Positions 11,695 through 38,777 of a stretch of DNA of 64,000 nt are shown piece after piece; positions within the stretch are counted from its first letter, which is position 1, and each line of letters begins with the position of its first letter. Below the pieces are notes generated by a model that searched no databases, was not told the origin of the DNA, and saw only the letters and a list, made by a program, of their open reading frames with translations. A program made the translations under genes and the position numbers. The DNA lies in NCBI GenBank assembly GCA_029556615.1, contig JAKQDD010000091.1:1-64000 (forward strand), read 5' to 3'. This stretch comes from Verrucomicrobiota bacterium (GTDB taxonomy: Bacteria; Verrucomicrobiota; Verrucomicrobiia; Limisphaerales; J093).

Positions 11695-11695
11695 G

Positions 11696-14887: not shown

Positions 14888-14910
14888 GGGGGCATGTGCG
14901 AACGGGGGGG

Positions 14911-14969: not shown

Positions 14970-14978
14970 ATATCTTCC

Positions 14979-15160
14979 TAGAGTCCTCGACTTGTGGAAT
15001 GTGTGGTCAACAGGTCAAGTTGGGCCCCTGCCGTTCCAGCCCTCCCCACCTTCCGTCGAGGACTCTACATTAGCGAGGCGCGGAAGAGAGGGTGGGCAGG
15101 CACAGCAGGGTCTGCATGAACCTGAGGACTCGACTGGGTCTGAGGCGGCGCCTCGCTAGG
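14979..15160. repeat. Composite E-C repeat (copy E3+C3)
   Basis: E3 (14979-15067) is bounded by TAGAGTCCTCGACTT and TCGAGGACTCTA. C3 (15070-15160) is bounded by TTAGCGAGGCGCGG and GGCGCCTCGCTAG. The two are joined by only a few bases in the same arrangement as at 59069-59250. Between 14888 and 15267 no gene is seen. Confidence 0.8.
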
Positions 15161-15203
15161 GATTGGTCTGGTCTGAGGTGCGCCTGGATGGGGAATGGGG
15201 GGG

Positions 15204-15219
15204 CGGAATCCAAGTTGCT
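15204..15219 (+). promoter_or_regulatory. Candidate sigma54 (-24/-12) promoter of the VWA/tubulin operon
   Basis: GG at 15205-15206 and GC at 15217-15218 have the exact N10 spacing, and the -12 part reads GTTGCT. The -24 part (CGGAAT) is weaker than the TGGCAC consensus. It lies about 50 nt before the first VWA gene. The facing operon encodes a sigma54 activator, which makes the match worth noting, but one site could arise by chance. Confidence 0.3.
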
Positions 15220-15267
15220 ATTGCGTTCCGCCGAGGCAATCGACACAATGCCCTGGAAATCAGCACG

Positions 15268-18165: not shown

Positions 18166-18168
18166 CCT

Positions 18169-20367: not shown

Positions 20368-20422
20368 TCTGCAGCCGATTGAAAGCGATTCACCAATTCA
20401 AGAGAACACACTGTAGCAACGT

Positions 20423-23400
20423 ATGATCACTCCAACTCTGTTCATTGGCGTCGGTGGCCTGGGAGACAACCTGGTTCGCCGGGTCCGCCGGCGGCTACTC
20501 ATGTTACATGAGGAGGAAGGCGGCTTCGACCCCAGCCTGTTCCATTTCGTCGTCATGGACCCGCAGGTCAACATGCCAGCCGGCGCGACGGTCGATCCGA
20601 AGGACGGCTTCGAGCGCTCGCATTACTATCAGATGCAGGGCTTCAACCAGCGGGTCTACGACGCCGACATGGGGATGCCGGGGTTCGCCGATATCCGGCG
20701 GCGCGCTTATCCGGGGTACTTGGTGAAACCGTCCGCCACCAACGGCTACAATCAAGTCCGGTGGAACGGCGCCTTCGGTTTGAAGCTCAACACCTCGGTG
20801 GTTCGCGGCAACATCAATCTGGTTCAGTTTCTCCGGGACGCGCTGGGACATCTGATGAGCCATACCACGGCGGTCCACCGGGGAGGGGCTGGGGTGGTGA
20901 TCTACGTATGCGCCTCACTGTGTGGCGGCACGGGTTCTGGCGTGGCGCTGGACCTCGGCTATCTGATCCAAGCCCTGGCTATGCAGGCCGGCTATGACCC
21001 GCACGTTTATGGCGTGTTCGGTTTGCCCGAGCTGATGGCCAAGATCGCCAATGCGTACAAGGAGTCCTTTTACGCGAATGCCTACGCATTTCTCAAAGAG
21101 CTGAACTGGTACATGCTCCCCACGGATCCCGCGGCCAACGCCCAGACACGGAGGTTTTACTATCGCGCCGCGTTTGGTAGCGTGGTGGTGGATGAGGAAC
21201 GGGCTGAGAACCCCATTTCCAATCCTTATGATCATGTGTTCCTCCTGTCGACCTACGGTCAGGAAGGAGGCGTGATCAACGACGCGGGTTCCGTTCTGGA
21301 CATGGCCGCCGAGGCCCTGTGTCTCATGAACGCCAAGGGCGCCGAACAGTATCAGCCGAACGTTGAGCATGACCGGCCCTACGTCGAAAACCGCCTGCAG
21401 CAACGTCGGGCGACTTCCTTCGGCGGTCTCGGGAGCTGCACCCTCCGTTTCCCGGTTCTGCAGGTCCGGAATTACCTCCTGGCCCTTTGCCTGCCGCCGA
21501 TACTCACCGATTACTTGATCAGTCCCAAGGCGGCCGGATCGCTCGGGGGGCGTCGCGCGGAGGATTTCCGGTGTTCGGACCAGATCCCGTTTCGCCTGGA
21601 CAAAATGGAGGCGTTGGCGGCCGGCCGGATGCCCGGCACCAACCTGAATTACACGGACCGCATCAACAGCACACAGATGCCCGAGGCCGGGACCATCGAA
21701 GACGATGGCGCCCTGAGCGAGTTGGACGCGCTGGTGGGTTTCTTTCAGGAAGTGAAGCGGGACGCCGGGGACGAGGTCGCGCGGCGGCGTTTGCCAATCC
21801 TGCAACAGGAGTTGGACGGGCATTGCAGTGCGGTGCGAGCCCGGGTCGACACTGTCTATGCCGAGATCTTCGAGGGCAAGGGCAACCTCGTCGCTCTCGG
21901 GGAAGCTGCCGTGTTCCTGGGAGACCTCAAGAAGTACTGCAAGGGTCTGACGGGTTATGGACTGACCGGCGAGGAGGCCAGTTCGCCCGACCTGCTCAAG
22001 GCGCGCGCGGCGGCGCTGCGGGCGCGCGTCGAGAGAACGTACCTGACGCGAGACAGCGCCGAGTTGCAGAAGTTGGCCTTTGAACACGAAGGCTGGATGG
22101 GCCGACAGAAGAACTACCGCCTGCGGATCGGGACGGCGGTTGCGACCATCATTGAGCTCATAGCGCAAGCGTCCATCCTGGACGAACTGCACAGCTTCTA
22201 CATCAAGGTGCTCCAGCATGTGGAAGCACGCAAGCGACCGATACGGTTCATCCAGGAGGAGGTGGCGGGTGCGTACTACGGAGCGCTGAAGGGCAACCCC
22301 GCGACGCGGCTCTACGTGGCCTCCAAGGAGGCGCATGGCCTCGAGGACTTGCGGTGTGCGACCGAGGAGGCCGTGCAACTTGTGGTCGTGCCGTTCGTGC
22401 CTCTCCTTTCGAAGGACGCGAAGGTGCGACAGGAACTGGAAACGCGCCTGTTCGGCGTGGTCTTGCCCCGGATACGGCAGTTGGTCGAGGATCTGGGCGG
22501 GGAGTTGAAGAACGTACCGGAGGAGCAGCGAGAGCGATACCTGCACGATCACAAGAAGCAATACGAACGAGCTCTCGAGAAGATCCTCGTGGAAGTCTAT
22601 GGTGGCGAGTTGGAGTCGGTCCTAAAGCGGGAATTCAGCATCGGCCAGGTGCTGGTTCGGGAAGCCATGGCACGTGGGGAAACCAAAGCCAAAGCAGTGG
22701 TTCATGCGCGTTCGGTGGTCAGCCGCATGGCGAAGCAGGCGCAGGTCTACTCGGGCATGGACTACAACGCGCGCGGGTCCGCGGCCGCAGAAATGGAGCG
22801 GGTGCTCCTCCTCGATCGTGACGCCTTCAATCAGGCCATCGCGGCCCATTCCGGAGGCAACTATGACATCGCCACCGATACTCTCATCGGTATGGGCGAA
22901 CCGCTGACAACCCAGGACCCATTCAGCATCAGCATGTTGTGCGTGGGGAAGAACTGGCCGCTGTACACGCTTAAGATGCTGGCCCAGTGCCGCAGCAGTT
23001 ACAATCAGTACGTCCCCTACGCCAAGGGGAGCAAGCCCGTGCATACCGACTACCGCTTCGAAAACCCGAGTGCCGCGCCGGAATTCCAGTTGCCGACCGT
23101 CGAGATGGTCCAGGACGAGAATGACGCCGACATCTTCCTGTTTCTGCTGGCGGAGCAAGACTGGTGGAAAGACCTCGAGGGGTTTCAGGGGGGCGAAGGC
23201 GGATCGGAATGGGACGGGCCCCTCGGGCCGCTCGTCACCCAGGCCAAGAACTACTACACGTGGCGCGGTCCGAACGGAGAGCAGAGCGAACTGGGACGGG
23301 AACGCGCTCAGACCGCGTTCTGTATCGACGAGAAGTCCTTGCGCGAGGGAATTCGCGAAGTGCTCCAGCGCCGCTGGAATACCGCCTTTACCAAGCAAGA

Positions 23401-23542
23401 GCAGAGGAAGCTGCTGACCAGCCTCCGGGACAAGAAGGCCAAAGACAAGACCACGACACAGTACAAGGAGCTGATCCGCTGCTATTCGAACGAACAGCGG
23501 ATCCTGGACGAGCGCCTGGAGGAAGGGAACTATGCCCTGTAA
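20423..23542 (+). CDS. Tubulin_2 (FtsZ/tubulin-like) protein
   Basis: The product is 1039 residues. It starts TPTLFIGVGGLGDNLVRRV, a Rossmann-like first strand and glycine loop, and has the tubulin/FtsZ T4 signature as CASLCGGTGSGVALDLGYLI (GGTGSG at 168-173), followed by YGVFGLPELM. These are hallmarks of the Tubulin_2 family of large bacterial tubulin-superfamily proteins, which are predicted to bind GTP and possibly polymerise. Residues beyond about 450 are helical and charged, with coiled-coil-like stretches (ARVDTVYAEIFEGKGN, RQELETRLFGVVLPRIRQL), and are not found in FtsZ. Family members are known to sit beside VWA proteins and have been proposed to act in membrane remodelling, which fits the two VWA genes upstream. 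Substrate and polymer properties are unknown. Confidence 0.85.
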   Translation: MITPTLFIGVGGLGDNLVRRVRRRLLMLHEEEGGFDPSLFHFVVMDPQVNMPAGATVDPKDGFERSHYYQMQGFNQRVYDADMGMPGFADIRRRAYPGYLVKPSATNGYNQVRWNGAFGLKLNTSVVRGNINLVQFLRDALGHLMSHTTAVHRGGAGVVIYVCASLCGGTGSGVALDLGYLIQALAMQAGYDPHVYGVFGLPELMAKIANAYKESFYANAYAFLKELNWYMLPTDPAANAQTRRFYYRAAFGSVVVDEERAENPISNPYDHVFLLSTYGQEGGVINDAGSVLDMAAEALCLMNAKGAEQYQPNVEHDRPYVENRLQQRRATSFGGLGSCTLRFPVLQVRNYLLALCLPPILTDYLISPKAAGSLGGRRAEDFRCSDQIPFRLDKMEALAAGRMPGTNLNYTDRINSTQMPEAGTIEDDGALSELDALVGFFQEVKRDAGDEVARRRLPILQQELDGHCSAVRARVDTVYAEIFEGKGNLVALGEAAVFLGDLKKYCKGLTGYGLTGEEASSPDLLKARAAALRARVERTYLTRDSAELQKLAFEHEGWMGRQKNYRLRIGTAVATIIELIAQASILDELHSFYIKVLQHVEARKRPIRFIQEEVAGAYYGALKGNPATRLYVASKEAHGLEDLRCATEEAVQLVVVPFVPLLSKDAKVRQELETRLFGVVLPRIRQLVEDLGGELKNVPEEQRERYLHDHKKQYERALEKILVEVYGGELESVLKREFSIGQVLVREAMARGETKAKAVVHARSVVSRMAKQAQVYSGMDYNARGSAAAEMERVLLLDRDAFNQAIAAHSGGNYDIATDTLIGMGEPLTTQDPFSISMLCVGKNWPLYTLKMLAQCRSSYNQYVPYAKGSKPVHTDYRFENPSAAPEFQLPTVEMVQDENDADIFLFLLAEQDWWKDLEGFQGGEGGSEWDGPLGPLVTQAKNYYTWRGPNGEQSELGRERAQTAFCIDEKSLREGIREVLQRRWNTAFTKQEQRKLLTSLRDKKAKDKTTTQYKELIRCYSNEQRILDERLEEGNYAL

Positions 23543-23660
23543 GAACGGACATCGGATTCCCGGAGGGGCACTCCTGATGCTTCGCTGACACACGACGCGG
23601 AGCTCATGTCTTCGCGAAAGCCGGTCGTCGCAGCAGGAGCTCCGCAAGCCCTCGGCCACC

Positions 23661-26105
23661 ATGGTCATCCGACCCAGCGTGTACATCGGAATCGGGGACT
23701 TTGGCATCGAGGCCATCGGGGAGTGGATGGCGTTTCTGCACACCCGTTTGCCCCACGTGTTGCCATACGTCCGCGCGTGCGGTCTCTGCGGGCCGGAGGG
23801 CGAATCCTCTCCGCGGAGAATCCCCTGCGGTCGGATCGTTCATGGGCAATTGGATCTCACTGCCGAAGCATGGATCCAACAGATCAGAGCGGCCTCGGAT
23901 CTCGATGGGTTCGCACGTCGCATCCGGCATGGCGTCGACGCCTTGCCCCTGGTCGAGAAACCGGAGGCATGGCCGGTTCAAGTTCATGTGTCGGTGCCCC
24001 GGGTCGTTCTGGTGGCCAGCTCGGCGGACCCGCTCTTCAGGGAGACGTGTTTCCCGGAGGTTGATCCTCGAGGGCTGGATCTCGGGAAAGCCATCACGGA
24101 GCACGTGGCCCCCGGGATTGGTCTGAACGACCTCGTCGCCCTGCTGTTCATTGACCAGCCGGAGGATGCGCCTTTCGGGCCCTCCCTCCAGGGTATCGCC
24201 AGGGCGCTGGCATGCTGGGAGGGCAAGGGCATCGGCTACTTGGTGTCACGCCGAGGCTGGCACCGGAACGAGACCGGAGACGCCCTGCAGCGGTCCTTGT
24301 GGCAGGCCGTGGCCGGCTGGGACGAGGAGTATGGCAAGGGCGCGCGGTGCTTTGCCCGGCACGCATTGTTGTTGCTTCTGCGTGCGGGCGAACCTCCAGG
24401 CGCTTCCAGCGTGTGGGACTGTATACAACCCCACGAAAACCCAGCGCCCCACTTCTATGCGCTCGGGTTCGGAGTCGTCCTCGAACCGGCTTACGAAGTG
24501 GAGCAGTATCGACGGGCACGGAGGCTGCGATTCGATCTGTTGGGCAAGCTGCGCGACGGGCCGGTCGAGGTACCGCCCAACCGGCCGTCGGGGGTTGCCC
24601 GCGGCAAGTTGCCGGGAGGCTTTGAGGCTTTGCTGGATCCCACGGCGGATCCGCACGATGTGGAATTCCTGGAGCGGCTGATCACGGCTTTGACCATCGT
24701 TCCGCGGCCGGAGGGTTTTCGCTTCGAGCCGCCGGAATCACCGGCGTTGGCCGATCTGCGATCCTTGAAGCTCGAGACGTTGACCCTGTCGGACGTCAGG
24801 TGGTGGACGGGACGCCGGCTTCCCGTGGAGACCCGGGAGTTGCTGCGGCGCATCCAGAAGCACTGCCTCGACTGCCTTCAGGCGGCGATGCACTGGCGCG
24901 ATTTCCTCGCCCGCGCCTTTCGGCAGGCGGGCGACGCCGTCAAAGCGGGCTACGATGCCTCGTTGCGAGCCACCCTCGCCATGCAGGAGGAGAGCGTGGC
25001 CGCCCTCGTGACCAGCCGGCTCGGTGCCGGCGGTTTGTCCAAGTCCCAAGTTCTGCTACTCTTGAAAAATCTCCTCGAGCGCCTTGAATTCCGGGAGGGC
25101 ATGGTGGCCATGGTGCCGCCCAAGATCGACGCGATCGTGGACGAGCAATTCGCGCGTCGTGTCCGCCAAATGGTTTTCGAGTTAAGGGTGCAAGAGCAGA
25201 TCAGCACGCGGAGTTCGCTGGCCTATGCGACTCTGTCCTCGGCGGTGCTGGGTGTCGGCCTGGCGTATGCCGTGTACGGTGCGTGCCACAGCCTGCCTCG
25301 AGCGCTGCTGTACTCAGGTGTCAGTTTCCTCGCCGGTCCCGTGGTCGGAGCACTCCTGCATCTCAAGGGCCAACGGAATCGCGTGGCCCGAGAGCGAGCC
25401 CTGCAAACGGGCTTGCTCGACAGCGGGCAGAGTCTTGTGACCCGGGTCGAGGCGGAAATGCGGGGGCTGGCGGAAGCGTACTGCAAGGCCTACGAGAGAC
25501 TCTATCAACTGCGCGCCGAGAGGGCTTTGAGGAGGTTGCTGACCCGCACGGCCGGTCGCCTTCGGGTTGCGGAGCAACTGGTCGAGGACCGCTGCCGGGA
25601 GATGGACCAGCGGCTCCAGTTGTTAGGCCAGTTGCCTGAGCTCAAGGCAGCCTGGGTCCATTGCACCGCCGGCCAACAGGAATATGAGGATGCCTTGCGT
25701 CAAGGGGCGTCGGCGAATTCTGGCCTGACTCCCCTTCAAGCCCGCATGCCCCTGGCAGTCCCGGGCGAACCCTTCGAAGAGGAACCGTTCCAATCCTGTC
25801 TCGGACGTCAAATGATGGACTTCGCCGGGGCCGGTTTGCAGGCGTCAAGCCAGGGACCGCCCGATCGGGTCCTCGGCCGGTTCGATGCCGCGTTTCAGGA
25901 ATGCCAGAAGGGCGCCGCCTACCCCTCTGAACCCGAGGAGCTCGCCGCAGACACCTTCGCCCTGATTCCTCAGAGCGCGGAAGGACTGCCGGCCTGGAGG
26001 GAGCGGATCCAGAGGGCCGGGCTGACAGGGCGGGCGTTCCCCTGGACCCTGGACGAGATGGTCCTGTTTGCCCGTGTATGGCGGGTGAATCCAATCCCGA
26101 GTTGA
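23661..26105 (+). CDS. Membrane-anchored protein, possible degenerate tubulin-like partner
   Basis: The product is 814 residues and is not confidently assigned. The first residues, RPSVYIGIGDFGIEAIGEW, mirror the start of the preceding Tubulin_2 protein (TPTLFIGVGGLGDNLVRRV). Later strands (RVVLVASSADPLFRET, LNDLVALLFIDQP) could continue a nucleotide-binding fold, but there is no GGTGSG loop. A helical region at about 380-520 precedes two hydrophobic segments (LAYATLSSAVLGVGLAYAVY and LLYSGVSFLAGPVVGALLHL, about 520-570). A coiled-coil-like stretch follows (RVEAEMRGLAEAYCKAYERL). It may be a pseudo-GTPase that holds the tubulin-like protein at the membrane. The gap to the upstream gene is 118 nt and the gap to the next is 14 nt. 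Confidence 0.65.
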   Translation: MVIRPSVYIGIGDFGIEAIGEWMAFLHTRLPHVLPYVRACGLCGPEGESSPRRIPCGRIVHGQLDLTAEAWIQQIRAASDLDGFARRIRHGVDALPLVEKPEAWPVQVHVSVPRVVLVASSADPLFRETCFPEVDPRGLDLGKAITEHVAPGIGLNDLVALLFIDQPEDAPFGPSLQGIARALACWEGKGIGYLVSRRGWHRNETGDALQRSLWQAVAGWDEEYGKGARCFARHALLLLLRAGEPPGASSVWDCIQPHENPAPHFYALGFGVVLEPAYEVEQYRRARRLRFDLLGKLRDGPVEVPPNRPSGVARGKLPGGFEALLDPTADPHDVEFLERLITALTIVPRPEGFRFEPPESPALADLRSLKLETLTLSDVRWWTGRRLPVETRELLRRIQKHCLDCLQAAMHWRDFLARAFRQAGDAVKAGYDASLRATLAMQEESVAALVTSRLGAGGLSKSQVLLLLKNLLERLEFREGMVAMVPPKIDAIVDEQFARRVRQMVFELRVQEQISTRSSLAYATLSSAVLGVGLAYAVYGACHSLPRALLYSGVSFLAGPVVGALLHLKGQRNRVARERALQTGLLDSGQSLVTRVEAEMRGLAEAYCKAYERLYQLRAERALRRLLTRTAGRLRVAEQLVEDRCREMDQRLQLLGQLPELKAAWVHCTAGQQEYEDALRQGASANSGLTPLQARMPLAVPGEPFEEEPFQSCLGRQMMDFAGAGLQASSQGPPDRVLGRFDAAFQECQKGAAYPSEPEELAADTFALIPQSAEGLPAWRERIQRAGLTGRAFPWTLDEMVLFARVWRVNPIPS

Positions 26106-26119
26106 CCGGAGCGTGACCC

Positions 26120-26827
26120 ATGATCCTGCTGCTGGCCTCCACCTTGGTCTTCTTGGCCTCCGTCATCCTGGTATTCGCCGGGTTCCTGACCAGCGGCCTC
26201 CCGGCTCGGTTCTTCCATTGGGTCATGGATACCGGGCTGAACCGTTGGCCGTGGCTCCAAGCCGTGGCGGACTGGTTCCTGTTCCCGTGCCTCCTCCTGG
26301 TCCTCTTGGTAGCGGCGGTGATCCTGCTGCGGGTGGTTCTGGGGTCACCCCGCAGGATCATGCGCCAGTATGACTGGCCCCTCGAGCCGCAAGACCCACC
26401 CGCAGGCCTCGACGGGATGCGCTATCGCTTTTGGTCACGATGGTTCGGATTCTGGGTGTTTCGGAAGGACGCGGTTTGGCCATTCCCGTTCGCGGCATAT
26501 CCGCTGATGGTCCTGGCAGGCGCGGCCGCCATCGGGTGCGGGGTGCTCCTGGGGCTCTTCCCCGCGGCGATGTATCCCGGCGGCTCCCATCCGACGCTGC
26601 TGATCGCTGCGCTCCTGGTCTACCTGGGAATGAGCGCCGCGCACCGGGATGTCGCAGCACGAATTCGTGAGATCCGGGAAGGAGGTGCGGTCACGGACCT
26701 GGACTCGATTGCCGACGTCTCCCAGGGTCAGGATCGGAGCGCTCAAAGGGCCCCGAACCCTGAGGACCCATCCTCGGCGGCCTCGCCTCCGGCGCCAAGC
26801 GGGCGAGGATCCGCCGAAGTGACATGA
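26120..26827 (+). CDS. Small multi-pass membrane protein
   Basis: The product is 235 residues with four hydrophobic segments: LLLASTLVFLASVILVFAGF (start), LFPCLLLVLLVAAVILLRVV (about 54-73), YPLMVLAGAAAIGCGVLLGL (about 125-145) and TLLIAALLVYLGMSAA. The C-terminal 60 residues are hydrophilic and rich in Pro, Ser and Ala, so probably disordered. No family is recognised. It lies between the membrane-anchored tubulin-like partner (14 nt upstream) and the pseudo-helicase gene (27 nt downstream), so a structural role in the same membrane complex is likely. Confidence 0.7.
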   Translation: MILLLASTLVFLASVILVFAGFLTSGLPARFFHWVMDTGLNRWPWLQAVADWFLFPCLLLVLLVAAVILLRVVLGSPRRIMRQYDWPLEPQDPPAGLDGMRYRFWSRWFGFWVFRKDAVWPFPFAAYPLMVLAGAAAIGCGVLLGLFPAAMYPGGSHPTLLIAALLVYLGMSAAHRDVAARIREIREGGAVTDLDSIADVSQGQDRSAQRAPNPEDPSSAASPPAPSGRGSAEVT

Positions 26828-26854
26828 AAGCGCATGCGAGTCTGAAGTGAAGTC

Positions 26855-29800
26855 ATGGACCTAGACCCCGTCCAGCAACAAGTCCGCGAGGCGACGCTCC
26901 GGGAGGCCCTGGACCGTCTGAGGCACCCTTGCCGTCAGGACATGCGCCTCGTGGGTTCGATCCTGACGAGCGGATGCGGTCTTCACGACAGGCCGAGCGC
27001 TCGCTACACGCTTCAATTCGATTACCTGTCGCTCGCCAAAGGCCTCCTGGCCACGCAGGGCGAGACGACCCCGGCCCGCGCCTTCCTGGTCGAGTGCCTG
27101 GGACAGCGGCGGGCGGATGGCCGGCCTACAGGGGATGAGGCTTGGGTCGACGACCTTCTCGGGAGCCTTCAGCTGGGGGAAGCGGCTGAAGCGTTCCTGT
27201 ACGGTAGGTCGACCAGCGTGATGGCCGATTTGACCCACCAGCCCCGGATCGTGCGCGCGCTCGCCTGCAGAGATGCCGGCAAGCGGCACATGGTCTCGAT
27301 GCTCCCTTGGGGCAGCGGCCGCAGCACGGCGGCGTTTCTGGCTTCCATGCATCTTCTGACACGGCGCATGGGAGGCGTGCTCTATGTGACGCCCACGGCA
27401 AAGGTGGCCGAACTGATCACCCGGCAAGCCGCTGATTTCCTTCTCGCCAGCGGGTGGGCGGGAGCCCTGACGCTGGTCTGTCTCACGGAAGGCCGCGCGG
27501 ATGGGGAACGATACCGGCGCCTTCGATGGGATGATGCGCAGGGAATGCTTGTGGAATGGAGCGATCCCACCCTGATTCCGAACCTCGTGGTGGTGCATCC
27601 GGAAACGCTCTCGGAGTTTCTCCTTCAGGGCCACCCTGACTACCGGGAGTTCCTTGCAGACGTGGAGCTGGTAATCCTCGACGGTGCTGACGCGTTTTAC
27701 GGCACGGTTGGCACGCACGTGTCCTTGATTCTGCGACGGCTCCGGTTGGTGCTGGAGCGGCTGGGAGCCGACTATCGGACCTTCACGACAGTCGCGCCCT
27801 GTGCCAATGCCCTTCCGCACGTCACCCGCCTTTGGGGCTTTGACCAGGATCGTGAGACCGGCGAGGAGCAGTTGGACGTCATTCGTCCGGGAGAAGACTT
27901 TGCCCCGCGACCCGAGCGCATCGTGGCCATGTGGTCGCCCCCGTTGCGATTCTCGCCCACCGAAGGATCCCACGATCCGCATGCCCCTTTGCTCCGTTTC
28001 TCCACGACGCCCTGCCAGGTGGCGACCCGCGATGGCCTCGCAGCCCTCCTCAGCGCCCTCGCCTTCGGACTGGCCGAGTCTCCCCCGGCGAGGCTGCGAC
28101 TCCGCGGTACTTCGGAGGAGGCCATCCTGCACATCCCGCTGCTCACCCAGAGCCCCCATCTCACCGAAGATGATCTCCAGCATCTCGGGGTTCGGGGTGC
28201 GCGGTTCGAGTTGGTTCGAACGCCTGCTGAGCTCAGGCGGCAGGAATTGGATCGACGCGCGCTGGTCGTCTTCGGGCATTCGGCGGGGTGGCCGGAACTG
28301 CTCCATGAGCTTGCTCATTTTGGAGAGCCAGGGAGCCTGATCGTCTTTGCCTCCGGACCCGATCCGACCAGCCGTCATTTCATCCAAGAGGCATCCGGTG
28401 TCCTGGAAGAACGGCTCCAGCGCTTTGCGGCAGAAGGCGGCACCGGAGTGCAGGACTTGTGGGAATCCGGCACACAACGGCTCGAGTTCGCCCCCGACAA
28501 TGCGGAGATGCTGAAGCTGCACCTGTACCTGGCAGCCACAGCCGAGCACGGAATCACCGACGACGAGGCGCGGAGGTTCTTTGGCCATGGCGCAGTGGAC
28601 TGGCTCGAGAGCCTGGCTCGGGAGGAACTGGGGGTTGCGGAGGGCACGCAAGTGGCGGTTCAAGGCAAGATGGTGCGACGATACCGTTTTGCGCCGTCAG
28701 CGGCGCTGGGGCGGCCCACATGGGATCTCCAGTGCGTCGCTTGGGATCGCCCGGGACGCGGAGATCGCCTGTTGCCGATTGTCGTTCCCGGGATGGGGGC
28801 GCGCCCGCTGGGACTGGTCGAGAAGGTGTTTTGGAGCCCGGGACACGGGCTTGCTCACGAGGCCGGCAGCATCGTGTTGCGGCAGGGTCGCCGATTGGCT
28901 GTCTCCGAGGTGACTGGGGCCGGTGTGGAGTGCCGGTATGCGAATGGGATGGAATGGCGGCCTCGGCTCTCCCGAATCGAAGTCGCTGTCTCGCGCCTTG
29001 CACAGCGGCCACCGCGGACGGCAGAGCTGGACCTCATGGGCCTGAAGTTGTGCATCCAGGAGATTGAGGTTGTGGATCAAGGTGTCGGGCGCGTGGATGT
29101 ACCGGGCTATCTCATCGAAAAGCCCGGGATAACCCTGTATCAAGGGTCGTGCGCACGCTATGCGACCCAGGGGCTGTTTCTCCGCTTTGGAGCCGCAGAG
29201 AAACCCAGCCTCGTTCTCCGCCACTCCCTCGAACATCTGATGAAGATCGTGCTTCCCATGTTCGTCCGCTACTCCCCGGAAGACCTTGAGGTCCGCGTGG
29301 TCCCGGGGGAGGGAGGGGAGTGGGATTTGGTCCTGTTCGATCGGCATCCCGGGGGTACCGCGTACTCCTCGGCTCTCTGGCAGCGGGACGTCGATTGGTG
29401 GCGTCGTCTTTTCAAGGCTGCGTACGATCTGCTTCGTGATTGTCCGTGTCACACGGGCTGCTGGCGGTGTCTCAAGACGTTCGACTGCCACGGCACTGTC
29501 ACCGGCACAGGAGTCCATTACAACGAGGAACTGAGCAAAGAGGAGGCATTCCTCTTCCTGGGCAAACACCTCGATCCCGACCGCTACCTCCAAACCTGGA
29601 CTTTGAAGGCGGGTTGGACCAGGGGCAACACGGGGGCTGGGACACCCTCGCTTGCCGCCGCAGTCCGCCAGGACGGGCTGGCCCTCCTGACCTACCACGC
29701 GGGTGTGATCCGGCGTGTCCTCCGCGACCGTTGCGCCCTCGAGGTCCCCGCTGAGCACCAACAGACCGTCGGCTATGACGATGCCTCCCCCACGGGCGGC

Positions 29801-31096
29801 TACTGCAAGGGAATCCAAATCCGTGTCTGGAGCCCGGAGAAGTCGGGGTGGAGTGAACGGCAATACATCAAGGTGCTCGCGCATGAAATGACCCATTTCT
29901 GGCAGGCTCTGTCCGGTCAGTTCTCGCCGCAGCTGATGGCGTACGATTTCGACAACATCGAAGCCGAGACCAACATCCCCTTCCGCGGGAGGTTGTTTGT
30001 CGAGGGCTGCGCGGAGTGGGTCTGCAGCCACGTTTGCAGCTATTACGGCTTCGCCCACGAAATGAGTCAGATCCGGCAGGCGTGGGGGGACAGCGAATAC
30101 GATTTCGGTTATCGGCTGTTTTTGTTCCTCGAGTATCACACTGACATCGCCCGGCTGTTGCATCTGCTCTCGTCAGGGGAGATTCTCGTCGAGCCGGAGC
30201 GACAGCAACAGGGTTGGCGTTTGCTGCGCAGCCCGCGGGACTACGAGGTCCATCTCTACAACGACCCCCGCTTGGGCCTGTTGACCCAGATGACGAGTGC
30301 CGGTTGGGATCGTCCCGAGGACGTCCAATGCTTGAGGCGGTATGAGCAATACCCCCACGGTGCCGTGCGAGGGCCGCTGGGAGCAAGCCAGGATGCCCCG
30401 CGTGGCAGCTACATCCTGGGCCGTGCGGCGTCAGTTCCGGACGAGGCTGAGGACCGGTTCAAGGCGGATCTTCAAGCCCGGCACCGGTTCGGATTCAGGC
30501 TGGACGATCCCATCGGCAGCGTTCTGGCGAAGATTGGCCGCAAGGCCGCGGACGATCTTGCCCTCCAATGTCGGCGGTGCAGTGAACGAGAGAAGTGCAC
30601 GGTGTTCCAAGCGTGTCACCTCCATTCCTCGGGGGAGCCGGGCCGGAGCACCACGGAGTTGCTGCTCCAACTAGCCAGGGCGCTCAAAGAGGAGAACGCG
30701 CGGCGGAAAGGCACGCCTCCACCATCAGGCGGACCACGGGGCAACCCCAGGGAGGGAGCTGCAGAGGGCGATGCCGTCGAGCCGATGCCGCCTTCGCCTT
30801 CGGCGGAAGGCTGCGAACCCCTGGGGGATTCGCGAGAGGGCGCATCATCCGAGGACGACAGCAGGACCAAGCAGGACCGGCCGGACGTCGCCGATGCGCG
30901 CACCGCGTCGGCTGACAAACTGGACATCAATAGGGCGTCCCGCCAGGAGATCCTCGACCTTCTGATCGTCGGCCCTGTGCTCGCCGATCGCATTGTGGCG
31001 GCGAGGCCCTACCACAGTATCGACGAATTACGGTGCGTCGAAGGCATGTCTGAGAGCGTCTTCGAATTGCTCAAGCAGCACCTTGAAGTGCGATGA
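26855..31096 (+). CDS. Pseudo-helicase (MrfA/Hrq1-like with MZB zinc domain) fused to a zincin protease and helix-hairpin-helix
   Basis: The product is 1413 residues. The N-terminal half follows the order of MrfA-type SF2 helicases: LPWGSGRST for motif I (about 150), VLYVTPTAKVAEL for Ia, VELVILDGADAFYGTVGTH for motif II (about 270), TTVAPCANA for motif III, and ASGPDPTSRHF after the place of motif VI. Motif I has Arg instead of Lys, DEAH is DGAD, and the QxxGRxGR of motif VI is absent, so ATP hydrolysis is unlikely. CPCHTGCWRCLKTFDC (about 862-877) is the DUF1998/MZB four-Cys zinc site. Residues 1010-1014 are HEMTH, followed after about 40 residues by EGCAEW, a gluzincin/DA1-like metalloprotease layout. 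CRRCSEREKC may bind zinc. The last 60 residues (LDINRASRQEIL...) are a ComEA-type helix-hairpin-helix. It is the last gene of its operon. Confidence 0.8.
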   Translation: MDLDPVQQQVREATLREALDRLRHPCRQDMRLVGSILTSGCGLHDRPSARYTLQFDYLSLAKGLLATQGETTPARAFLVECLGQRRADGRPTGDEAWVDDLLGSLQLGEAAEAFLYGRSTSVMADLTHQPRIVRALACRDAGKRHMVSMLPWGSGRSTAAFLASMHLLTRRMGGVLYVTPTAKVAELITRQAADFLLASGWAGALTLVCLTEGRADGERYRRLRWDDAQGMLVEWSDPTLIPNLVVVHPETLSEFLLQGHPDYREFLADVELVILDGADAFYGTVGTHVSLILRRLRLVLERLGADYRTFTTVAPCANALPHVTRLWGFDQDRETGEEQLDVIRPGEDFAPRPERIVAMWSPPLRFSPTEGSHDPHAPLLRFSTTPCQVATRDGLAALLSALAFGLAESPPARLRLRGTSEEAILHIPLLTQSPHLTEDDLQHLGVRGARFELVRTPAELRRQELDRRALVVFGHSAGWPELLHELAHFGEPGSLIVFASGPDPTSRHFIQEASGVLEERLQRFAAEGGTGVQDLWESGTQRLEFAPDNAEMLKLHLYLAATAEHGITDDEARRFFGHGAVDWLESLAREELGVAEGTQVAVQGKMVRRYRFAPSAALGRPTWDLQCVAWDRPGRGDRLLPIVVPGMGARPLGLVEKVFWSPGHGLAHEAGSIVLRQGRRLAVSEVTGAGVECRYANGMEWRPRLSRIEVAVSRLAQRPPRTAELDLMGLKLCIQEIEVVDQGVGRVDVPGYLIEKPGITLYQGSCARYATQGLFLRFGAAEKPSLVLRHSLEHLMKIVLPMFVRYSPEDLEVRVVPGEGGEWDLVLFDRHPGGTAYSSALWQRDVDWWRRLFKAAYDLLRDCPCHTGCWRCLKTFDCHGTVTGTGVHYNEELSKEEAFLFLGKHLDPDRYLQTWTLKAGWTRGNTGAGTPSLAAAVRQDGLALLTYHAGVIRRVLRDRCALEVPAEHQQTVGYDDASPTGGYCKGIQIRVWSPEKSGWSERQYIKVLAHEMTHFWQALSGQFSPQLMAYDFDNIEAETNIPFRGRLFVEGCAEWVCSHVCSYYGFAHEMSQIRQAWGDSEYDFGYRLFLFLEYHTDIARLLHLLSSGEILVEPERQQQGWRLLRSPRDYEVHLYNDPRLGLLTQMTSAGWDRPEDVQCLRRYEQYPHGAVRGPLGASQDAPRGSYILGRAASVPDEAEDRFKADLQARHRFGFRLDDPIGSVLAKIGRKAADDLALQCRRCSEREKCTVFQACHLHSSGEPGRSTTELLLQLARALKEENARRKGTPPPSGGPRGNPREGAAEGDAVEPMPPSPSAEGCEPLGDSREGASSEDDSRTKQDRPDVADARTASADKLDINRASRQEILDLLIVGPVLADRIVAARPYHSIDELRCVEGMSESVFELLKQHLEVR

Positions 31097-32049: not shown

Positions 32050-33669
32050 TCAGGCACCAGCTCCGAGGAGGCGTTCCAGAAGCCGCTTGCGCAACTCCAA
32101 GCGGTCCACCCGCAAGGCGATCTCGGTGATTTCTCTCGCCGCCTGGCGATAAAGCCGCGTGGGACGGAAATCCGCGACGGTCGTGCCGGCGAAGTCGCCG
32201 GCGCCAGGGCCGGCGATTTCCACATGGTACGTGTCCGAGACGAAGAGCTCCGGCCAAAGGACAAACCCCACCGCCATCGCGTCATGGATGGGACACCCGT
32301 TCAGCGCCTGGTTGCGATGGTAGAAGTCCATGTAGGGCCGTGTGAGATCGACGAGAAACTCCGCGCGGGCGTCTCCCTGTTGGGCTCGAGCGACCAGCGG
32401 CCGCTGCTCAAGGACGACGCGATGGGTCACATCGAGGGGAACGAAGGCGTGGGGCAAGTGGCGTTCCCGGCAGAAGCGCAGCACGTCGATCGCGCTCTGG
32501 GGATCGGCGGCGATGTTGAATTCGACCGAAGGATGGCGGTTGCCAGCCTCGGCGAAGGCGCCTCCCATGTGGACCATCCGGCGAAGGCGGCACAAGGCCT
32601 CCGGGCACTCGCGAACCAGCGTTGCCACATTCGTGAGCGGCCCGGTCGTCACCAGGACCACGCTGTGGGGTGCCTGTTGCTGGATAATCCCGGGAAAGAT
32701 CTCGAGGAGCGGCATCGGTTCTCGAGGACGAAAGGTCCCCAAGTGCCGCCTGATGTCGCCCATGCCGTCCGTGCCGTGTACGTTCTGAGCCGTATGCGGC
32801 TCGCCTCGGGCGATCTCGCCGGGTCCAATACAGAGGGGAATCGCGCTGGCGGAGGCGTAGTGCAGGATCCTGGCATTGTTGGCCGAGGCCTGGCGCGCGG
32901 GCACATTGCCGGAGACGGCAGAGACGCCCAGCACCTGGCAGAGGTCGGGGGACCGCAGCGCCAACAGGAGGGCCAGGGCGTCGTCCACGCCCGTGTCCGT
33001 GTCGAGCCAGAGGCTCTGCTGTCCGTAGCGCTGGGAGACCGCGGCGGCGAAGTTCTCGAGCTTGGAGCGCCGGATCTTGACCAAGCGGAACGAGCTCGTG
33101 AGCAACTCGGAGGCTTCCGCCACCAGTGACGCGCTCTCGGAGACCAGCTCGATCTCATGCAACTCCCCGAGGCGGATGCCGAAGTCGTCTTCGACGCGAA
33201 AGGCATCCAGATGCAGGCTCAGGGTGGGGCCGCCCGAGTGGCGCGCGAGAACCAGCGTTTCACGGTCGTTGCGGAGACAGCACATCCGCTGCAAACCCAG
33301 GCGGGATACCCCGAGCGTCTCGCGAAGGTGGGCGAGAACGTCCTCTCCGGGCTCGTTGGGGGTCTCGCCCGATGGCGCCCAAAACTCGCGGGTGTCGTAG
33401 TGCGGATACTCCTGCTCGCGGATGATGCGGCTTTTGACTTCGATGACGCGGAGGCTCTGCCGCCGTCGCAGCCGGCAGGCGACGCTGCGGGCCGCCAGCG
33501 TCAGCGTCATCGTCGCGGCGTCCACCTCATCATAGTAGACATCGCGAATCTGTTCCTGCTCCCGCCGCAGAACGCTGAAGGCGCCAATCCGGTCTCTCGC
33601 CTTCAACAAGGCCAGGATCTCGCTCGCGAACTCCTCTTCCGGCAGGATGAACTTGAACTCGTGCGTCAT
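32050..33669 (-). CDS. CYTH-domain and nucleoside hydrolase fusion
   Basis: The product is 539 residues. Residues 1-200 look like a CYTH/triphosphate-tunnel domain. They begin MTHEFKFILPEE, followed by VYYDEV, CRLRRRQSLRVIEVKSR, and HEIELVSE near the end of the barrel. Residues 220-530 are an inosine-uridine-type nucleoside hydrolase with every active-site element visible: LDTDTGVDDALALL (calcium Asp residues), VLVTTGPLTNVA, VHMGGAF, SVEFNIAADP and CPIHDAMAV. This half should cleave the N-glycosidic bond of (deoxy)ribonucleosides. CYTH domains hydrolyse or cyclise triphosphate compounds. A fusion of the two is new to me and suggests stepwise destruction or sensing of a nucleotide. It is cytosolic. 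The gene starts 4 nt after the stop of the receiver-HD gene, so it belongs to the same transcript. Confidence 0.85.
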   Translation of the reverse strand: MTHEFKFILPEEEFASEILALLKARDRIGAFSVLRREQEQIRDVYYDEVDAATMTLTLAARSVACRLRRRQSLRVIEVKSRIIREQEYPHYDTREFWAPSGETPNEPGEDVLAHLRETLGVSRLGLQRMCCLRNDRETLVLARHSGGPTLSLHLDAFRVEDDFGIRLGELHEIELVSESASLVAEASELLTSSFRLVKIRRSKLENFAAAVSQRYGQQSLWLDTDTGVDDALALLLALRSPDLCQVLGVSAVSGNVPARQASANNARILHYASASAIPLCIGPGEIARGEPHTAQNVHGTDGMGDIRRHLGTFRPREPMPLLEIFPGIIQQQAPHSVVLVTTGPLTNVATLVRECPEALCRLRRMVHMGGAFAEAGNRHPSVEFNIAADPQSAIDVLRFCRERHLPHAFVPLDVTHRVVLEQRPLVARAQQGDARAEFLVDLTRPYMDFYHRNQALNGCPIHDAMAVGFVLWPELFVSDTYHVEIAGPGAGDFAGTTVADFRPTRLYRQAAREITEIALRVDRLELRKRLLERLLGAGA

Positions 33670-33673
33670 AGAT

Positions 33674-36490
33674 CTAATGCCTCCGAATCGGCGGGTGGAC
33701 CCGGGCCAGGGTGACCCGTTCGCTCCCCGCCTCCCTCCCGTTCCAACGAAGCCTCCCCAGCCGAATGCGTTGCGCGAGGTGATTGTCGGCGATGGCCTGG
33801 TATTCCTCAATCACGTCGCAGAGGACCGCCAGCGCAGCCACTGTGGGTATCAAGCCCTGGACGCGACGCTCGGGCGGTTGTGTCAACTGATCGGCCATCC
33901 AGGCTTCGAGCTGAGGCCGCACCTCATCGAGGGCCTTGGCTGGGTCCTTTGCCGCCAGGGACGGGTCCCCCGACAGGCTCGCCAGGCGACGGACAGCCTC
34001 CCCGATGGGGGTCTCGTCGAAGCCATCCCAGAGGGTGACATTGCCTGCGGGAAGGAGACGCTGCAGCTCGAGCTTCATGTCGTTGGGCGACGCGGCGTTG
34101 AAGGTGATGCTGACGGATCCCCGTTCGATCGCCACCGCCTCGACCACCTGCCGCTTGCAGTTCTCCGGGTCCTGTGTCGGCGGGCGGTTGGGATCCAGAG
34201 TGATGAAATCCGCCGGCACGCGAGACCGGTCGATGTCAATGGCATCCGCGAAGCGGAACATGGCGCAAAGACGTCGCAAGCGCTCGACCGCCGACCGATC
34301 CCCATGGGATGCGACCCAACCGAGGTGTTGTCCCAGGCACCGCTCGAGGGTCTGGACCGCAGACTCCGCGTCGGCGGATCCAGCGTTGGAGAAGCGCCTG
34401 ACCAACGTGGCGCGGTCGGGCTCCTCGAACCGGCCCGCAGTCTGCAGCGCGGCGAACGCCTTGGGGGTCAAAGGGAGCGCCCGGGCGTGGAAGGCGGTCA
34501 GCACCGCAACCCGCGAGAGAAGCGACGTGCCGCTGCTTCCATCCCCCACCGATGCGAGCGTCCGGATCAGCTCCTGCAGATCTGGAGGCGGCGCGTCGGG
34601 TGTCGAGAGCAGCAAGCACCCGAGCGGGGCGTGGAGCTTCCGGATGCCCTTCAGCGCCTTATCCCGGGCGTCCTCGCCGCCAGCCATCGCCGCCTGCCAA
34701 CTCTTCATCGAGCTCGGAACATCCTCGACGAGGTCGTGTTCCGCAATGGGGAACATGCCCAACTCATGACACAGCGCGGCCAGGTAAAGGCAGAGGATCT
34801 CGATTTCGCGTTCCTGCAGCGTCGTCGAGAAGACCGACCGGTCCTCCTCCGGAGCCGATCGGGGGTCGACAAACAGCACGGGGTGCAGCAACCGCTCGAG
34901 ATAGCTGAGCAGGGCGACAATGTGACGTCCCCCGTGGTCATTGTAGAACTTGAAGAAGACCTGGTCGACCGCATGGAAGCCGTCCAGGCATTTCAGACAC
35001 CAATGCGTGAAGTCCAGCGCGCACGCGCGAAGAGCCTGGCCACGAATCACGTGGTCGAAGAAGGGATTGGGCAGTGAGATGAGTCTGCGAGCTCGCCCTG
35101 TGGCGAGCCACCGGCCGATCGTTCGGGCAACCTGGGCACACGTCGCAGTCTTCTTGTAGAGGTATCCGTTGTCGAGGGTCGCCTCGGACGCCAGCGTCGG
35201 ATCGAGGGAGGAGGTCCAGAGCAACACCGGCAGGTCACCCAGCCGCTCCCGAATCTCGCCCAGAAGATCCAATCCTGTGCGCTCACCAGGCAGACAGATG
35301 TCCAGCAGCATCAGGTCGTATTCCGGCAGGAACTGCCAGAGCGGCACGCGTTCCTCATCGGGCTGGGGAGGGTCGATCCACGTTGCGTCCCGGGAGAAAT
35401 CGATGATGACCGAAGCAACGCCCCGGGTTCCCGTCGGGCTCGGCTTCTGGTTGAACAGTGGAACCAGCATTCGGGCAATCACCTCGAACACGCCGCGCCA
35501 TAACGCGGCGTGGTCATCAACCACGAGAAGTCGGAAGGCGTCGTGGGAACCTCCCCCGCCGGGATGGTTGACCGGGGCAGCCGGCTCGGGATCAACCCCA
35601 GACGCCCGTTCCGGGGCGGGTTCCCCTGCCAGATGCCGTATTTCCGTGAGCAGGACCAGGAAGCGATCCAGCTCGTCGAGCGGCTCCTGAGGATCTGGCG
35701 GCTTGGGTTGTCCCAGCAACCGCTCGACACCTCCGAAGGAGTTGCTCAGCTCGGTGAGAAGGCCGCCCGGCGGCATCCCGGATGGATCAAGGACCTGCCG
35801 TCGGAACTCGGCCAGCAACGCCGTTCGCGGGAGCCCCGCCTGATCTGACGTGGCGCCCAACCGGATCTCCTTCGTCTGCGCGAACCACGCCTCGATTTCT
35901 CCTGGGGTGGCGCCGCCGGGTTCCCGTCCACTCTCGAGCAGCATGCGGGCGGGGCCGATGACGGTGTTGGCGAGGTCGTTCTTGCCGCCGTGGATGAACT
36001 GGCCCAATCGCCGGTGCAGCGCCTTGGCCACGACGATGCGACCACAGAAGTCCTGGGCGCTGCAGGAAGACTCGGGCTCGCCTCCCGGTTCCATGGCGCG
36101 GTCGATCGCCTCCAGAATCTCCGTTACCTCGAGGGTGCAGCAGCGGCACCGATCCCGGAGCGCTCCCTGGCCTACCACCGAGAGACCCTTCCAGGGCTGC
36201 CAATCCGGTCCGAACGGCGAGGCCACCACCATCGTAGGGATGGCGACGCCGGCGTAGGGCAGCAGTCTGCTCCAGAACTCTTCCTCGGTCAGGGCGATGA
36301 TGAGCCCCACGCACCTCTGGGGGGTTGTCTCGGCCAGAGGTCCCGTCGTGTTCCGGGCCTCTCCGCGGTGCGCCCTGACTTCCCAGCCTCGGAGCGTGAA
36401 CACGACCTTCCGGAGCGCGCCCAGCAGCGCGGTGCCGTCCGGCTCCGGAGTCACCACAACGATCCGAGGAACTTGAGTGGAGGCGCGCAC
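33674..36490 (-). CDS. Receiver protein with C-terminal HD-like domain
   Basis: The product is 938 residues. The N-terminal 130 residues may be a degenerate receiver (RIVVVTPEPDGTALLGAL). A helical region at about 145-300 includes a possible dimerisation segment (RRLGQFIHGGKNDLANTVIG) reminiscent of a kinase phosphotransfer helix. The receiver at about 318-470 has the acidic pair in LLVVDDHAA (about 322), the phospho-Asp in LMLLDICLPGE (about 393), the Ser/Thr in LLWTSS and the Lys in YLYKKT; about 50 residues are inserted between the acidic pair and the phospho-Asp. An HD-like domain begins NDHGGRHIVALLSYLERLL (about 515) and continues YLAALCHELGMFP (about 572), where HE stands in place of the usual HD. 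The output may be a phosphohydrolase or a ligand-binding relic of one. It is separated by 4 nt from the next gene and by 13 nt from the previous one. Confidence 0.78.
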   Translation of the reverse strand: MRASTQVPRIVVVTPEPDGTALLGALRKVVFTLRGWEVRAHRGEARNTTGPLAETTPQRCVGLIIALTEEEFWSRLLPYAGVAIPTMVVASPFGPDWQPWKGLSVVGQGALRDRCRCCTLEVTEILEAIDRAMEPGGEPESSCSAQDFCGRIVVAKALHRRLGQFIHGGKNDLANTVIGPARMLLESGREPGGATPGEIEAWFAQTKEIRLGATSDQAGLPRTALLAEFRRQVLDPSGMPPGGLLTELSNSFGGVERLLGQPKPPDPQEPLDELDRFLVLLTEIRHLAGEPAPERASGVDPEPAAPVNHPGGGGSHDAFRLLVVDDHAALWRGVFEVIARMLVPLFNQKPSPTGTRGVASVIIDFSRDATWIDPPQPDEERVPLWQFLPEYDLMLLDICLPGERTGLDLLGEIRERLGDLPVLLWTSSLDPTLASEATLDNGYLYKKTATCAQVARTIGRWLATGRARRLISLPNPFFDHVIRGQALRACALDFTHWCLKCLDGFHAVDQVFFKFYNDHGGRHIVALLSYLERLLHPVLFVDPRSAPEEDRSVFSTTLQEREIEILCLYLAALCHELGMFPIAEHDLVEDVPSSMKSWQAAMAGGEDARDKALKGIRKLHAPLGCLLLSTPDAPPPDLQELIRTLASVGDGSSGTSLLSRVAVLTAFHARALPLTPKAFAALQTAGRFEEPDRATLVRRFSNAGSADAESAVQTLERCLGQHLGWVASHGDRSAVERLRRLCAMFRFADAIDIDRSRVPADFITLDPNRPPTQDPENCKRQVVEAVAIERGSVSITFNAASPNDMKLELQRLLPAGNVTLWDGFDETPIGEAVRRLASLSGDPSLAAKDPAKALDEVRPQLEAWMADQLTQPPERRVQGLIPTVAALAVLCDVIEEYQAIADNHLAQRIRLGRLRWNGREAGSERVTLARVHPPIRRH

Positions 36491-36503: not shown

Positions 36504-38777
36504 TCAAAGAGGCTCGGTCACTGGTTTCTCGTCGAAGATCAACTGGAGGAACAGCGCCAGAAAGACGCAGATGAAGGCCCGATGCAGAAGCACGCCGGGC
36601 AATAGCTCCCACGGGTCGCCCGATCCGCGCCAAAGCGGCCGTGGGTTCTGGTACACTACGCGGATGCCGCCGGTCGACCGCAACGCCGGGGGCGCGAGGG
36701 GCGCGCCCGGCACACCCCAATAGAGCTGGCTCAGCTGCGCCTTGCGCAGCTCACCGGACGTCCAGCACCGGTCAGGTCCGCCGGTCGACACGCCTGGCTG
36801 AAGCGCTCTTGGCGCCGCTGAAAGCCGATCGCGAGGCACGCGGAAGACCCCCTGGAGGTCGCACTCGTCATACGGGACCGCAAAGTTCGTCAAACTGGGG
36901 AGAGGCCGCTGATCCGCCGTCATTGCCTTGGCGCTGGCCAGGAAGGCCGGTTCATCCAAGTACTTGGCGCTGCGCCAGGCGGATCTCAGAACCGTGTTCG
37001 TGAAGAGGAAGCCGACGAGCAAGGCCAGGGCAAAGCAGTAAAACGTGATGCTGAGCGCCCGCCACCACGACTGCCACAGGTCCCCTGTGCGCCGGCTGAT
37101 CTCGATCGTGGCAAACAGGAGTGTGATCACCAGCAGCGGAACGCCCGACCACAGGATATCTCCCCATCCGACCAGCAGCGAGGTCTTGAGAATCTCATCC
37201 GGACCGGCCATCACTACCACCCATGTCGTCGTCACGGTCATTAGTACGCGCGGCAGGCCCAGCCGAATCACCAGCAACAGGGAGGTGAAACGGAGGGCCC
37301 CGCGCTTCCACAGCCAGACGACGCCGGCGCTCGCGAGGAGGGGGACTGCAACGCAGAGGCCGTTCAACAGACCCCACCCTGTGGCGACGACCGTCCGGTT
37401 CTCAAGGCCTCCGAGATCCGCCAGCAGCAGCACACCCCAGACCACGGCCAGGAAGACGCCCAGAATCAGCGAGAACGGACGGGCTGGCATGGGCGTACGA
37501 TGAATCGGACTCCGACTCTGCCGCCTGCGACGGAAGTGGATGCACGCCAGGAGTAGCGCGAGCAGGGGCGGAAAGAGATAGCCCGCATGCTGCCCGAGGT
37601 CCGCCGCGGGAATCCGGCCGGACAGATGCGCCAGGGTGTAGACAGCGCCACAAGCGAAGGCGAGAAGGACGCCCAACCACGCCCCAACGGATGCCGTGCC
37701 CGTGGAAGTCGAGCGTGGGGCCCCGGTCCAGGAGCGGTGGGGCTTGGGACGCCGCAGGAGCATCAGCAAAGCGGCATCCAGGTCATAGCGCCGGAGCCAC
37801 CAACCGGCAATCCATCGAGTGCGCTCAGCCCAATCCGACGCCGCGGGCTTGCAGGGTGTTGGTGCCTGGTGAGAGTGCGGATCCGTTTCGGCTGGTTCGT
37901 CGCCGGCCAACGGCAACGGGGGCTCGCCGGTTGGTGGCCTCTCGTGCGGGGCGCAAGCTCCCGGCGGGCGGCCCCTGTAGAACACGACCGACCGCACCTC
38001 GTCTTCCACACCGAGGAACCACTCCTTGCCGCGCGCCAGGACTTCGGCTCCATCGTCAGCCGTGCACGCCCGCAGCCATTCAGTTTCGGCATTCCAGACC
38101 TCCTCCTCGGCGAAGCCGGGTGTCAAGCCCCCTTGGTACCGGCTCTCAACCTCGCACCGTTCCATCTGCCAGTGGTACTCCGCCTTGTCGTGGAGGGCAT
38201 TGGCCACCGGGCATTGGAGCAAGCCGGTTTCGATCCCGTCATAGCGTGGGCTGTGCCGGAAGACCGTCGTGTGCTTGAGACAGAACAGGAAGTCGAGGAC
38301 GAGGCGCCCGAGACTGATTGAGGCCGTGCCCCGGGCCAGCGGATGATCGAGGCATCCGAGGGCCCTGCGCCCCGGTTGAAGCCAGCACGGCTGAGCGGCG
38401 TACCCTTGTGGTGGGGCAGCCTCCCAGGCCTGCTCCTGACCGTCGCCGAGGGGCCATTCCTCCGTCGCACAACGGCCCAGGACATGGGATAGGTCATCCT
38501 TGACCGCCAGATTCAACGAGAGCGGCAGATGCAGAATGCGCTGGTGCGGCGCATGATCGGAGATGGCGGATGCCGCGGGGTCGATTCCCGAAGCCGACGC
38601 GTGACAGTAGAAGTCGATGGCGCGCGCCCGCAGGACGACGTAAACGGGAAAGGCACACGGGGAGTCCTTCGGCACGGCTCGCACGGACACCTGGGTGTAA
38701 TGAAACACCAGCCCTTCCGAGTCGTCCGGCTCCGGAACAAACAAGGAATCCGTCGGGAATGCCAGCGTGTCAGCCAT
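36504..38777 (-). CDS. Multi-pass membrane protein of the signalling operon
   Basis: The product is 757 residues. The first 430 are soluble, with no recognised domain (SLFVPEPDDSEGLVFHYTQV, HLPLSLNLAVKDDLSHVLGR). Seven or so hydrophobic segments follow at about 440-660, for example VGAWLGVLLAFACGAVYTL, FSLILGVFLAVVWGVLLLA and ALSITFYCFALALLVGFLF. A further one is at the C terminus (LLHRAFICVFLALFLQLIF). The long N-terminal part probably faces the cytoplasm. The gene begins inside the end of the preceding receiver gene (8-bp overlap), which supports co-translation and selects the ATG at 38777 over longer readings. It is a plausible membrane receptor or anchor for the phosphorelay. Confidence 0.75.
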   Translation of the reverse strand: MADTLAFPTDSLFVPEPDDSEGLVFHYTQVSVRAVPKDSPCAFPVYVVLRARAIDFYCHASASGIDPAASAISDHAPHQRILHLPLSLNLAVKDDLSHVLGRCATEEWPLGDGQEQAWEAAPPQGYAAQPCWLQPGRRALGCLDHPLARGTASISLGRLVLDFLFCLKHTTVFRHSPRYDGIETGLLQCPVANALHDKAEYHWQMERCEVESRYQGGLTPGFAEEEVWNAETEWLRACTADDGAEVLARGKEWFLGVEDEVRSVVFYRGRPPGACAPHERPPTGEPPLPLAGDEPAETDPHSHQAPTPCKPAASDWAERTRWIAGWWLRRYDLDAALLMLLRRPKPHRSWTGAPRSTSTGTASVGAWLGVLLAFACGAVYTLAHLSGRIPAADLGQHAGYLFPPLLALLLACIHFRRRRQSRSPIHRTPMPARPFSLILGVFLAVVWGVLLLADLGGLENRTVVATGWGLLNGLCVAVPLLASAGVVWLWKRGALRFTSLLLVIRLGLPRVLMTVTTTWVVVMAGPDEILKTSLLVGWGDILWSGVPLLVITLLFATIEISRRTGDLWQSWWRALSITFYCFALALLVGFLFTNTVLRSAWRSAKYLDEPAFLASAKAMTADQRPLPSLTNFAVPYDECDLQGVFRVPRDRLSAAPRALQPGVSTGGPDRCWTSGELRKAQLSQLYWGVPGAPLAPPALRSTGGIRVVYQNPRPLWRGSGDPWELLPGVLLHRAFICVFLALFLQLIFDEKPVTEPL

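Follow-up and report, generated by a model that had tools for sequence, protein, structure and literature searches.

A degenerate YprA/MrfA-like helicase joined to a gluzincin-like domain and a helix-hairpin-helix at the end of an FtsZl1/vWA operon in a Verrucomicrobiota bacterium

The window analysed here, positions 1-64,000 (64,000 nucleotides, forward strand) of contig JAKQDD010000091.1 from a Verrucomicrobiota bacterium (Limisphaerales; J093; GCA_029556615.1), contains an open reading frame (ORF), w14, in which an ATPase-dead helicase is combined with what is probably a zinc protease and with a short helix-hairpin-helix (HhH) tail, suggesting that the dead helicase directs a protease instead of working as a motor. 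The anatomy of w14, meaning its domains and its lost motifs, is well supported, and the order and linkage of the surrounding genes were observed directly; DNA binding, zinc binding, proteolysis, a substrate and a biological role are inferred. The original prediction, made from the letters of the sequence, had assigned an MrfA-like body, an HEXXH motif with a downstream Glu and a ComEA-type HhH to a single polypeptide, and this polypeptide is real. G+C content at third codon positions is coding-like along the entire ORF in codon-position analysis and each of the other two frames carries 7-9 stops at the helicase/zincin junction, so that no chimera or frameshift is visible at the domain junctions. 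The features of w14 are as follows (aa, amino acids).

26855-31096, plus strand: pseudohelicase-zincin-HhH ORF (w14), 1413 aa, ATG start, last gene of its operon
27233-29476, plus strand: YprA/MrfA-like region (RecA1, RecA2, OB/connector, MZB), aa 127-874, by hhalign and 6ZNP
27236-27241, plus strand: Q-motif HQ, aa 128-129, retained in the alignment with active relatives
27311-27328, plus strand: degenerate motif I GSGRST, aa 153-158, Lys lost
27680-27691, plus strand: degenerate motif II DGAD, aa 276-279, by alignment
27791-27799, plus strand: degenerate motif III, VAP for SAT, aa 313-315, by alignment
28304-28330, plus strand: degenerate motif VI, HELAHFGEP for QQAGRVGRK, aa 484-492, arginine fingers and Gln lost
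29228-29473, plus strand: MZB (DUF1998) zinc-binding domain, aa 792-873, Pfam 55.6 bits (cut-off 24.2)
29858-30136, plus strand: gluzincin-like domain (BSP-like), by profile searches
29882-29896, plus strand: HEMTH, aa 1010-1014, predicted ligands H1010 and H1014, predicted catalytic E1011
30002-30019, plus strand: EGCAEW, aa 1050-1055, predicted third ligand E1050, by sequence and BSP profile score
30911-31084, plus strand: ComEA-type HhH (HHH_3), aa 1353-1410, Pfam 35.2 bits (cut-off 27)

The predicted helicase homology proved to be a full-length match: aa 127-874 aligned to a profile built from 11 active YprA-type proteins with an hhalign probability of 99.4% (E=3.2e-21), and Bacillus subtilis YprA/MrfA (6ZNP) was the only credible solved relative of aa 1-898 in the PDB (E=1.1e-9). 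Homology extends over RecA1-RecA2-OB-MZB, which places w14 in the YprA/MrfA (MZB) family, and Pfam adds a DEAD match at aa 142-297 (33.4 bits, cut-off 26). The MZB domain is the best-kept part, with eight of nine family-invariant residues, and its zinc cluster is intact as anticipated, all four cysteines (863, 865, 869 and 872) being retained.

Compared with the same 11 active proteins, motif I changes from ASGKT to GSGRS, motif II from DEVH to DGAD with loss of the catalytic Glu, and motif V has lost its Gly and Asp. The automatic alignment of motif I is off by one residue, and the Lys is absent in every register, so that the missing Lys and the replacement of DEAH by DGAD stand as originally described. 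The third claim, a missing motif VI, holds for the catalytic residues, which are all replaced, but not for the region itself, which is still present in the fold. None of the hallmarks of an active superfamily 2 (SF2) helicase, i.e. the motif I Lys, DExH, SAT and QxxGRxGR, is found in w14. To judge from these alignments, the ATP-hydrolysis site is destroyed and the RecA1-RecA2-OB-MZB fold is kept. A second HEXXH, HELAH (aa 484-488, 28304-28318, plus strand), lies precisely at the former motif VI site, probably by chance. Of the other MZB proteins retrieved from the phylum, those that are full-length and YprA-type keep motifs I and II, nearly all of them also keep motif VI, and none carries HEXXH.

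C-terminal to this body, three zincin families match weakly at the same place (BSP, E=0.01; DUF6055, E=0.015; M91, E=0.023), with BSP PF04450 at 16.1 bits remaining below its cut-off of 23.8. Against a profile of nine BSP domains, taken from BSP loci in the same order of bacteria, the w14 domain scored 35.0 (E=8e-5, probability 61%), while shuffled versions reached at most 18.8 and those with HEMTH preserved at most 28.6 (60 shuffles), which puts the predicted HEMTH...EGCAEW signature beyond chance. Control HEXXH sites scored 15-28. Removing E1050 lowered the score to 28.3, and removing the histidines lowered it as well. When the core from before HEMTH through EGCAEW was kept and the remainder shuffled, 16 of 80 sequences scored at least as high as the real one; because shuffled flanks score similarly, the evidence for a zincin is the two-motif arrangement and not a family-wide likeness. 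At the sequence level, H1010-E1011-H1014-E1050 corresponds to the HEXXH and downstream Glu of clan MA gluzincins, and the domain is likely of gluzincin type. It resembles BSP, which shares HExxHxxQ and EGxA[DE][YW] in the same order, more than it resembles DA1, although here the domain is fused to a helicase fold and its membership in BSP is unproven. DA1, the comparison originally proposed, gave no match up to E=10. An identity with SprT is unsupported, as no sequence relation was found. Following the zincin, a four-Cys cluster (CxxC-x5-C-x6-C, aa 1239-1255, 30569-30619, plus strand) with a weak DUF6455 match (E=0.029) is a possible second structural metal site.

The C-terminal HhH was correctly assigned to the ComEA type, since HHH_3 exceeds its cut-off, and it matches structure 2DUY with E=1.7e-6. 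Where the function of an MZB protein is known it acts on DNA, as do ComEA-type HhH domains.

The architecture was also predicted to be new, and no second fusion was found by exact-pattern search of genome contigs. Full-length relatives of w14 were absent from 58 relatives, 388 genomes of the phylum and plasmids, where only helicase, MZB or HhH pieces occurred, and none of the 286 genomes of the class held a related zincin copy; the phylum set is a sample, and searches of this kind miss strongly diverged copies. A widened zincin pattern retrieved 40 viral and 593 genome-contig stretches, none related. Its alignment used simulated rows, solely to broaden the DNA pattern, and these negatives therefore cover only HEM[TC]H[FAV][WF](Q) plus VEGCA[ED][WY][VI]. 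Viral scans for further YprA sequences yielded one useful locus.

The genomic context of w14, which was not part of the original prediction, adds an FtsZl1/vWA operon and a linked HD-CE/receiver and sigma-54 cluster. The genes are listed below, G175 and G072 being labels of two genomes within the phylum sample (TM, transmembrane).

13415-14887, plus strand: M48 peptidase + TerB protein, directly upstream of the operon, membership uncertain
15163-18165, plus strand: vWA protein, first gene of the operon, by domain scan
18169-20367, plus strand: vWA protein with TM segments, by domain scan
20423-23542, plus strand: FtsZl1/Tubulin_2 protein, GGTGSG intact, Pfam 104.7 bits
23661-26105, plus strand: 814-aa protein, possible degenerate tubulin-like paralogue (a lead), weak similarity to its neighbour
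26120-26827, plus strand: small multi-TM protein, by TM prediction
32050-33810, minus strand: nucleoside hydrolase-containing ORF, whose relative adjoins the HD-CE gene in G175
33674-36490, minus strand: receiver + HD-CE protein, by domain scan
38770-40572, minus strand: receiver-like (cREC_REC) protein, by domain scan
40593-42524, minus strand: receiver + sigma-54 activator AAA protein, relatives at the G175 and G072 loci

The operon (15163-31096) has intergenic spacings of 3-118 bp, ends with w14 and unites Tubulin_2 and vWA genes, as is characteristic of FtsZl1 systems. Convergent with it lies the minus-strand cluster of HD-CE/receiver, cREC and sigma-54-activator genes. Among the 388 phylum genomes Tubulin_2 exceeds its cut-off in 12, and full-length HD-CE/receiver relatives occur, besides the source, only in G175 and G072, at about 11 and 18 kb from an FtsZl1 gene, respectively (in each case within ~25 kb), with sigma-54 activators alongside in both. 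Because the HD-CE/receiver relatives are found near FtsZl1 only, operon and convergent cluster probably form one system; the evidence, two independent co-localisations, is good without being overwhelming. A count of sigma-54 promoters showed no clear excess (5 matches versus 4.2 expected).

Several further observations concern this locus and its relatives. The N-terminal 300 aa of the 814-aa protein resemble the adjacent FtsZl1 weakly in global alignment (z=4.1) and GGTGSG is absent, which would fit a dead tubulin paralogue, but hhalign gives only E=0.09 and this identity is not established. The M48-TerB fusion represents a second metalloprotease of the locus, and a multi-TM protein at 36507-39023 (minus strand) has a poxvirus A14 Pfam match that is most likely a spurious membrane-segment match. 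In G072, the FtsZl1 neighbourhood (L138, L065 and L059) also encodes CDC48_N and Macro proteins, a receiver-AAA-M41 protein, a receiver/HD-CE protein and a sigma-54 activator, and looks like a larger related system. On a plasmid of Allomeiothermus silvanus (Thermaceae; L084), a vWA / tubulin-like / hypothetical cassette (10123-16524) is flanked by insertion sequences and stands beside BREX genes; upstream of it are a WYL gene and a RecQ-annotated protein weakly matching the YprA profile.

Set against known systems, w14 shares with B. subtilis MrfA the RecA1-RecA2-OB-MZB order and the four-Cys cluster, yet differs in its destroyed ATPase motifs, its C-terminal gluzincin-like domain and HhH, and an FtsZl1 operon in place of MrfB. 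According to the accessible part of a recent survey, DISARM DrmA/DrmB, Druantia, Dpd, ARMADA, BRIGADE and TALON likewise add a C-terminal effector to a YprA body, but theirs are nucleases, some inactive, whereas in w14 the helicase is dead and the added domain is protease-like (PMC12458937). The scan of the operon and its neighbouring genes showed no methyltransferase, nuclease, BrxHII or DruH, so the locus does not classify as DISARM, Druantia or ARMADA. Membrane remodelling was the first role linked to FtsZl1/vWA cassettes (Makarova & Koonin 2010, PMC2875224); a connection to conflict systems, in company with GAP1-N2 GTPases, followed (Kaur et al. 2020, PMC7159879). The portions of these two papers that were available describe Tubulin_2 and vWA proteins, a TM protein and linked regulators, as found here, and do not mention a YprA-like or zincin-fused component. 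Pfam recognised no GAP1, TRAFAC GTPase or HSP70 in the scanned genes, several of which are ORFs lacking any Pfam match.

The reading we favour, at a probability of roughly 40%, is that the pseudohelicase body and the HhH dock the gluzincin, without translocation, either on DNA or on some partner in the FtsZl1 complex, and that the MZB module relays binding to proteolysis within an FtsZl1 stress or conflict system. For DISARM, it has been suggested that DUF1998 relays DNA binding allosterically (PMC9142583). In w14, the MZB module would pass the binding signal to the tethered gluzincin, which would then cleave one protein, whose identity could be that of a regulator, of a component of the system or of a protein bound to DNA; w14, the FtsZl1/vWA operon and the convergent genes would probably constitute one regulated system. 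Support comes from the G072 locus, which instead of a w14 counterpart holds a metalloprotease (receiver-AAA-M41) together with CDC48_N and Macro proteins. A narrower version, in which w14 is an ATP-independent, DNA-gated metalloprotease whose gluzincin is switched by DNA-induced MZB movement and which is both sensor and effector in a defence or stress system made up of FtsZl1, vWA and HD-CE proteins, appears unlikely, at about a one-in-four chance. Several points weigh against the docking model: only 41 of 85 invariant columns of the active YprA proteins are kept, so that about half of these helicase residues have been lost, most of motifs Ia and Ib among them; AlphaFold models of aa 100-905 (with one relative) and of aa 885-1413 alone reached predicted local distance difference test (pLDDT) values of only 30 and 36, respectively, both low because alignment was lacking; sequence beyond the two BSP motifs adds nothing measurable; the fusion is a single example; and FtsZl1 operons elsewhere lack a w14-like gene.

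The strongest competitor, though itself doubtful, is a structural pseudohelicase that acts as a protein scaffold of an FtsZl1/vWA complex, with the gluzincin acting on its members and a protein-binding HhH, no DNA being involved. The precedent is Utp25, an SF2 fold that like w14 lacks the catalytic motifs, although it belongs to eukaryotic ribosome assembly and has no protease domain (PMC9539457), and the FtsZl1/vWA setting, as far as the available portions of its descriptions go, points to membrane-associated assemblies (PMC2875224, PMC7159879). The DNA-contact motifs of w14 are degraded as well, but its MZB domain is the best-kept part. The DNA-directed action of MZB and ComEA-type HhH domains also argues against a pure protein scaffold. 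We regard it as improbable that w14 is a bacterial analogue of SPRTN or IrrE, switched by DNA structure to cleave DNA-protein crosslinks or repressors independently of the FtsZl1 proteins: DNA-dependent metalloproteases exist in other families and a DNA-helicase fold, HhH and zincin do meet in one chain here, but profile searches linked w14 by sequence to neither SprT nor IrrE, and a position in a vWA/FtsZl1 operon is unlike that of a stand-alone repair factor.

Similarly improbable is a chance HEMTH...EGCAEW in an unrelated fold, which would leave only a pseudohelicase with a C-terminal domain and HhH. The unreached zincin-family cut-offs, the low pLDDT of the C-terminal model and the HELAH elsewhere in the protein fit such a chance origin, but both motifs stand in gluzincin arrangement, and the observed score was matched by 0 of 60 HEMTH-keeping shuffles, with HELAH and an M48 control at only about 17. 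Least probable is a decaying, functionless gene, a once-active YprA fusion under relaxed selection: every helicase catalytic motif is lost and conserved copies were not found in the sampled relatives, yet 1413 codons are open with an even codon-position bias, the MZB cysteines, HEXXH with its Glu and the HhH are intact, and w14 closes a tightly spaced operon.

The literature we found presents YprA helicases as motors that use ATP in DNA repair and phage defence, and the accessible part of the recent YprA survey mentions inactivated nucleases, not an inactivated helicase or a fused peptidase (PMC12458937). A dead YprA body carrying a protease-like domain, if true, would mean that the DNA-responsive canopy of this family can find new use once the motor is gone, and w14 would become a concrete candidate sensor or effector for FtsZl1 systems, which are poorly understood.

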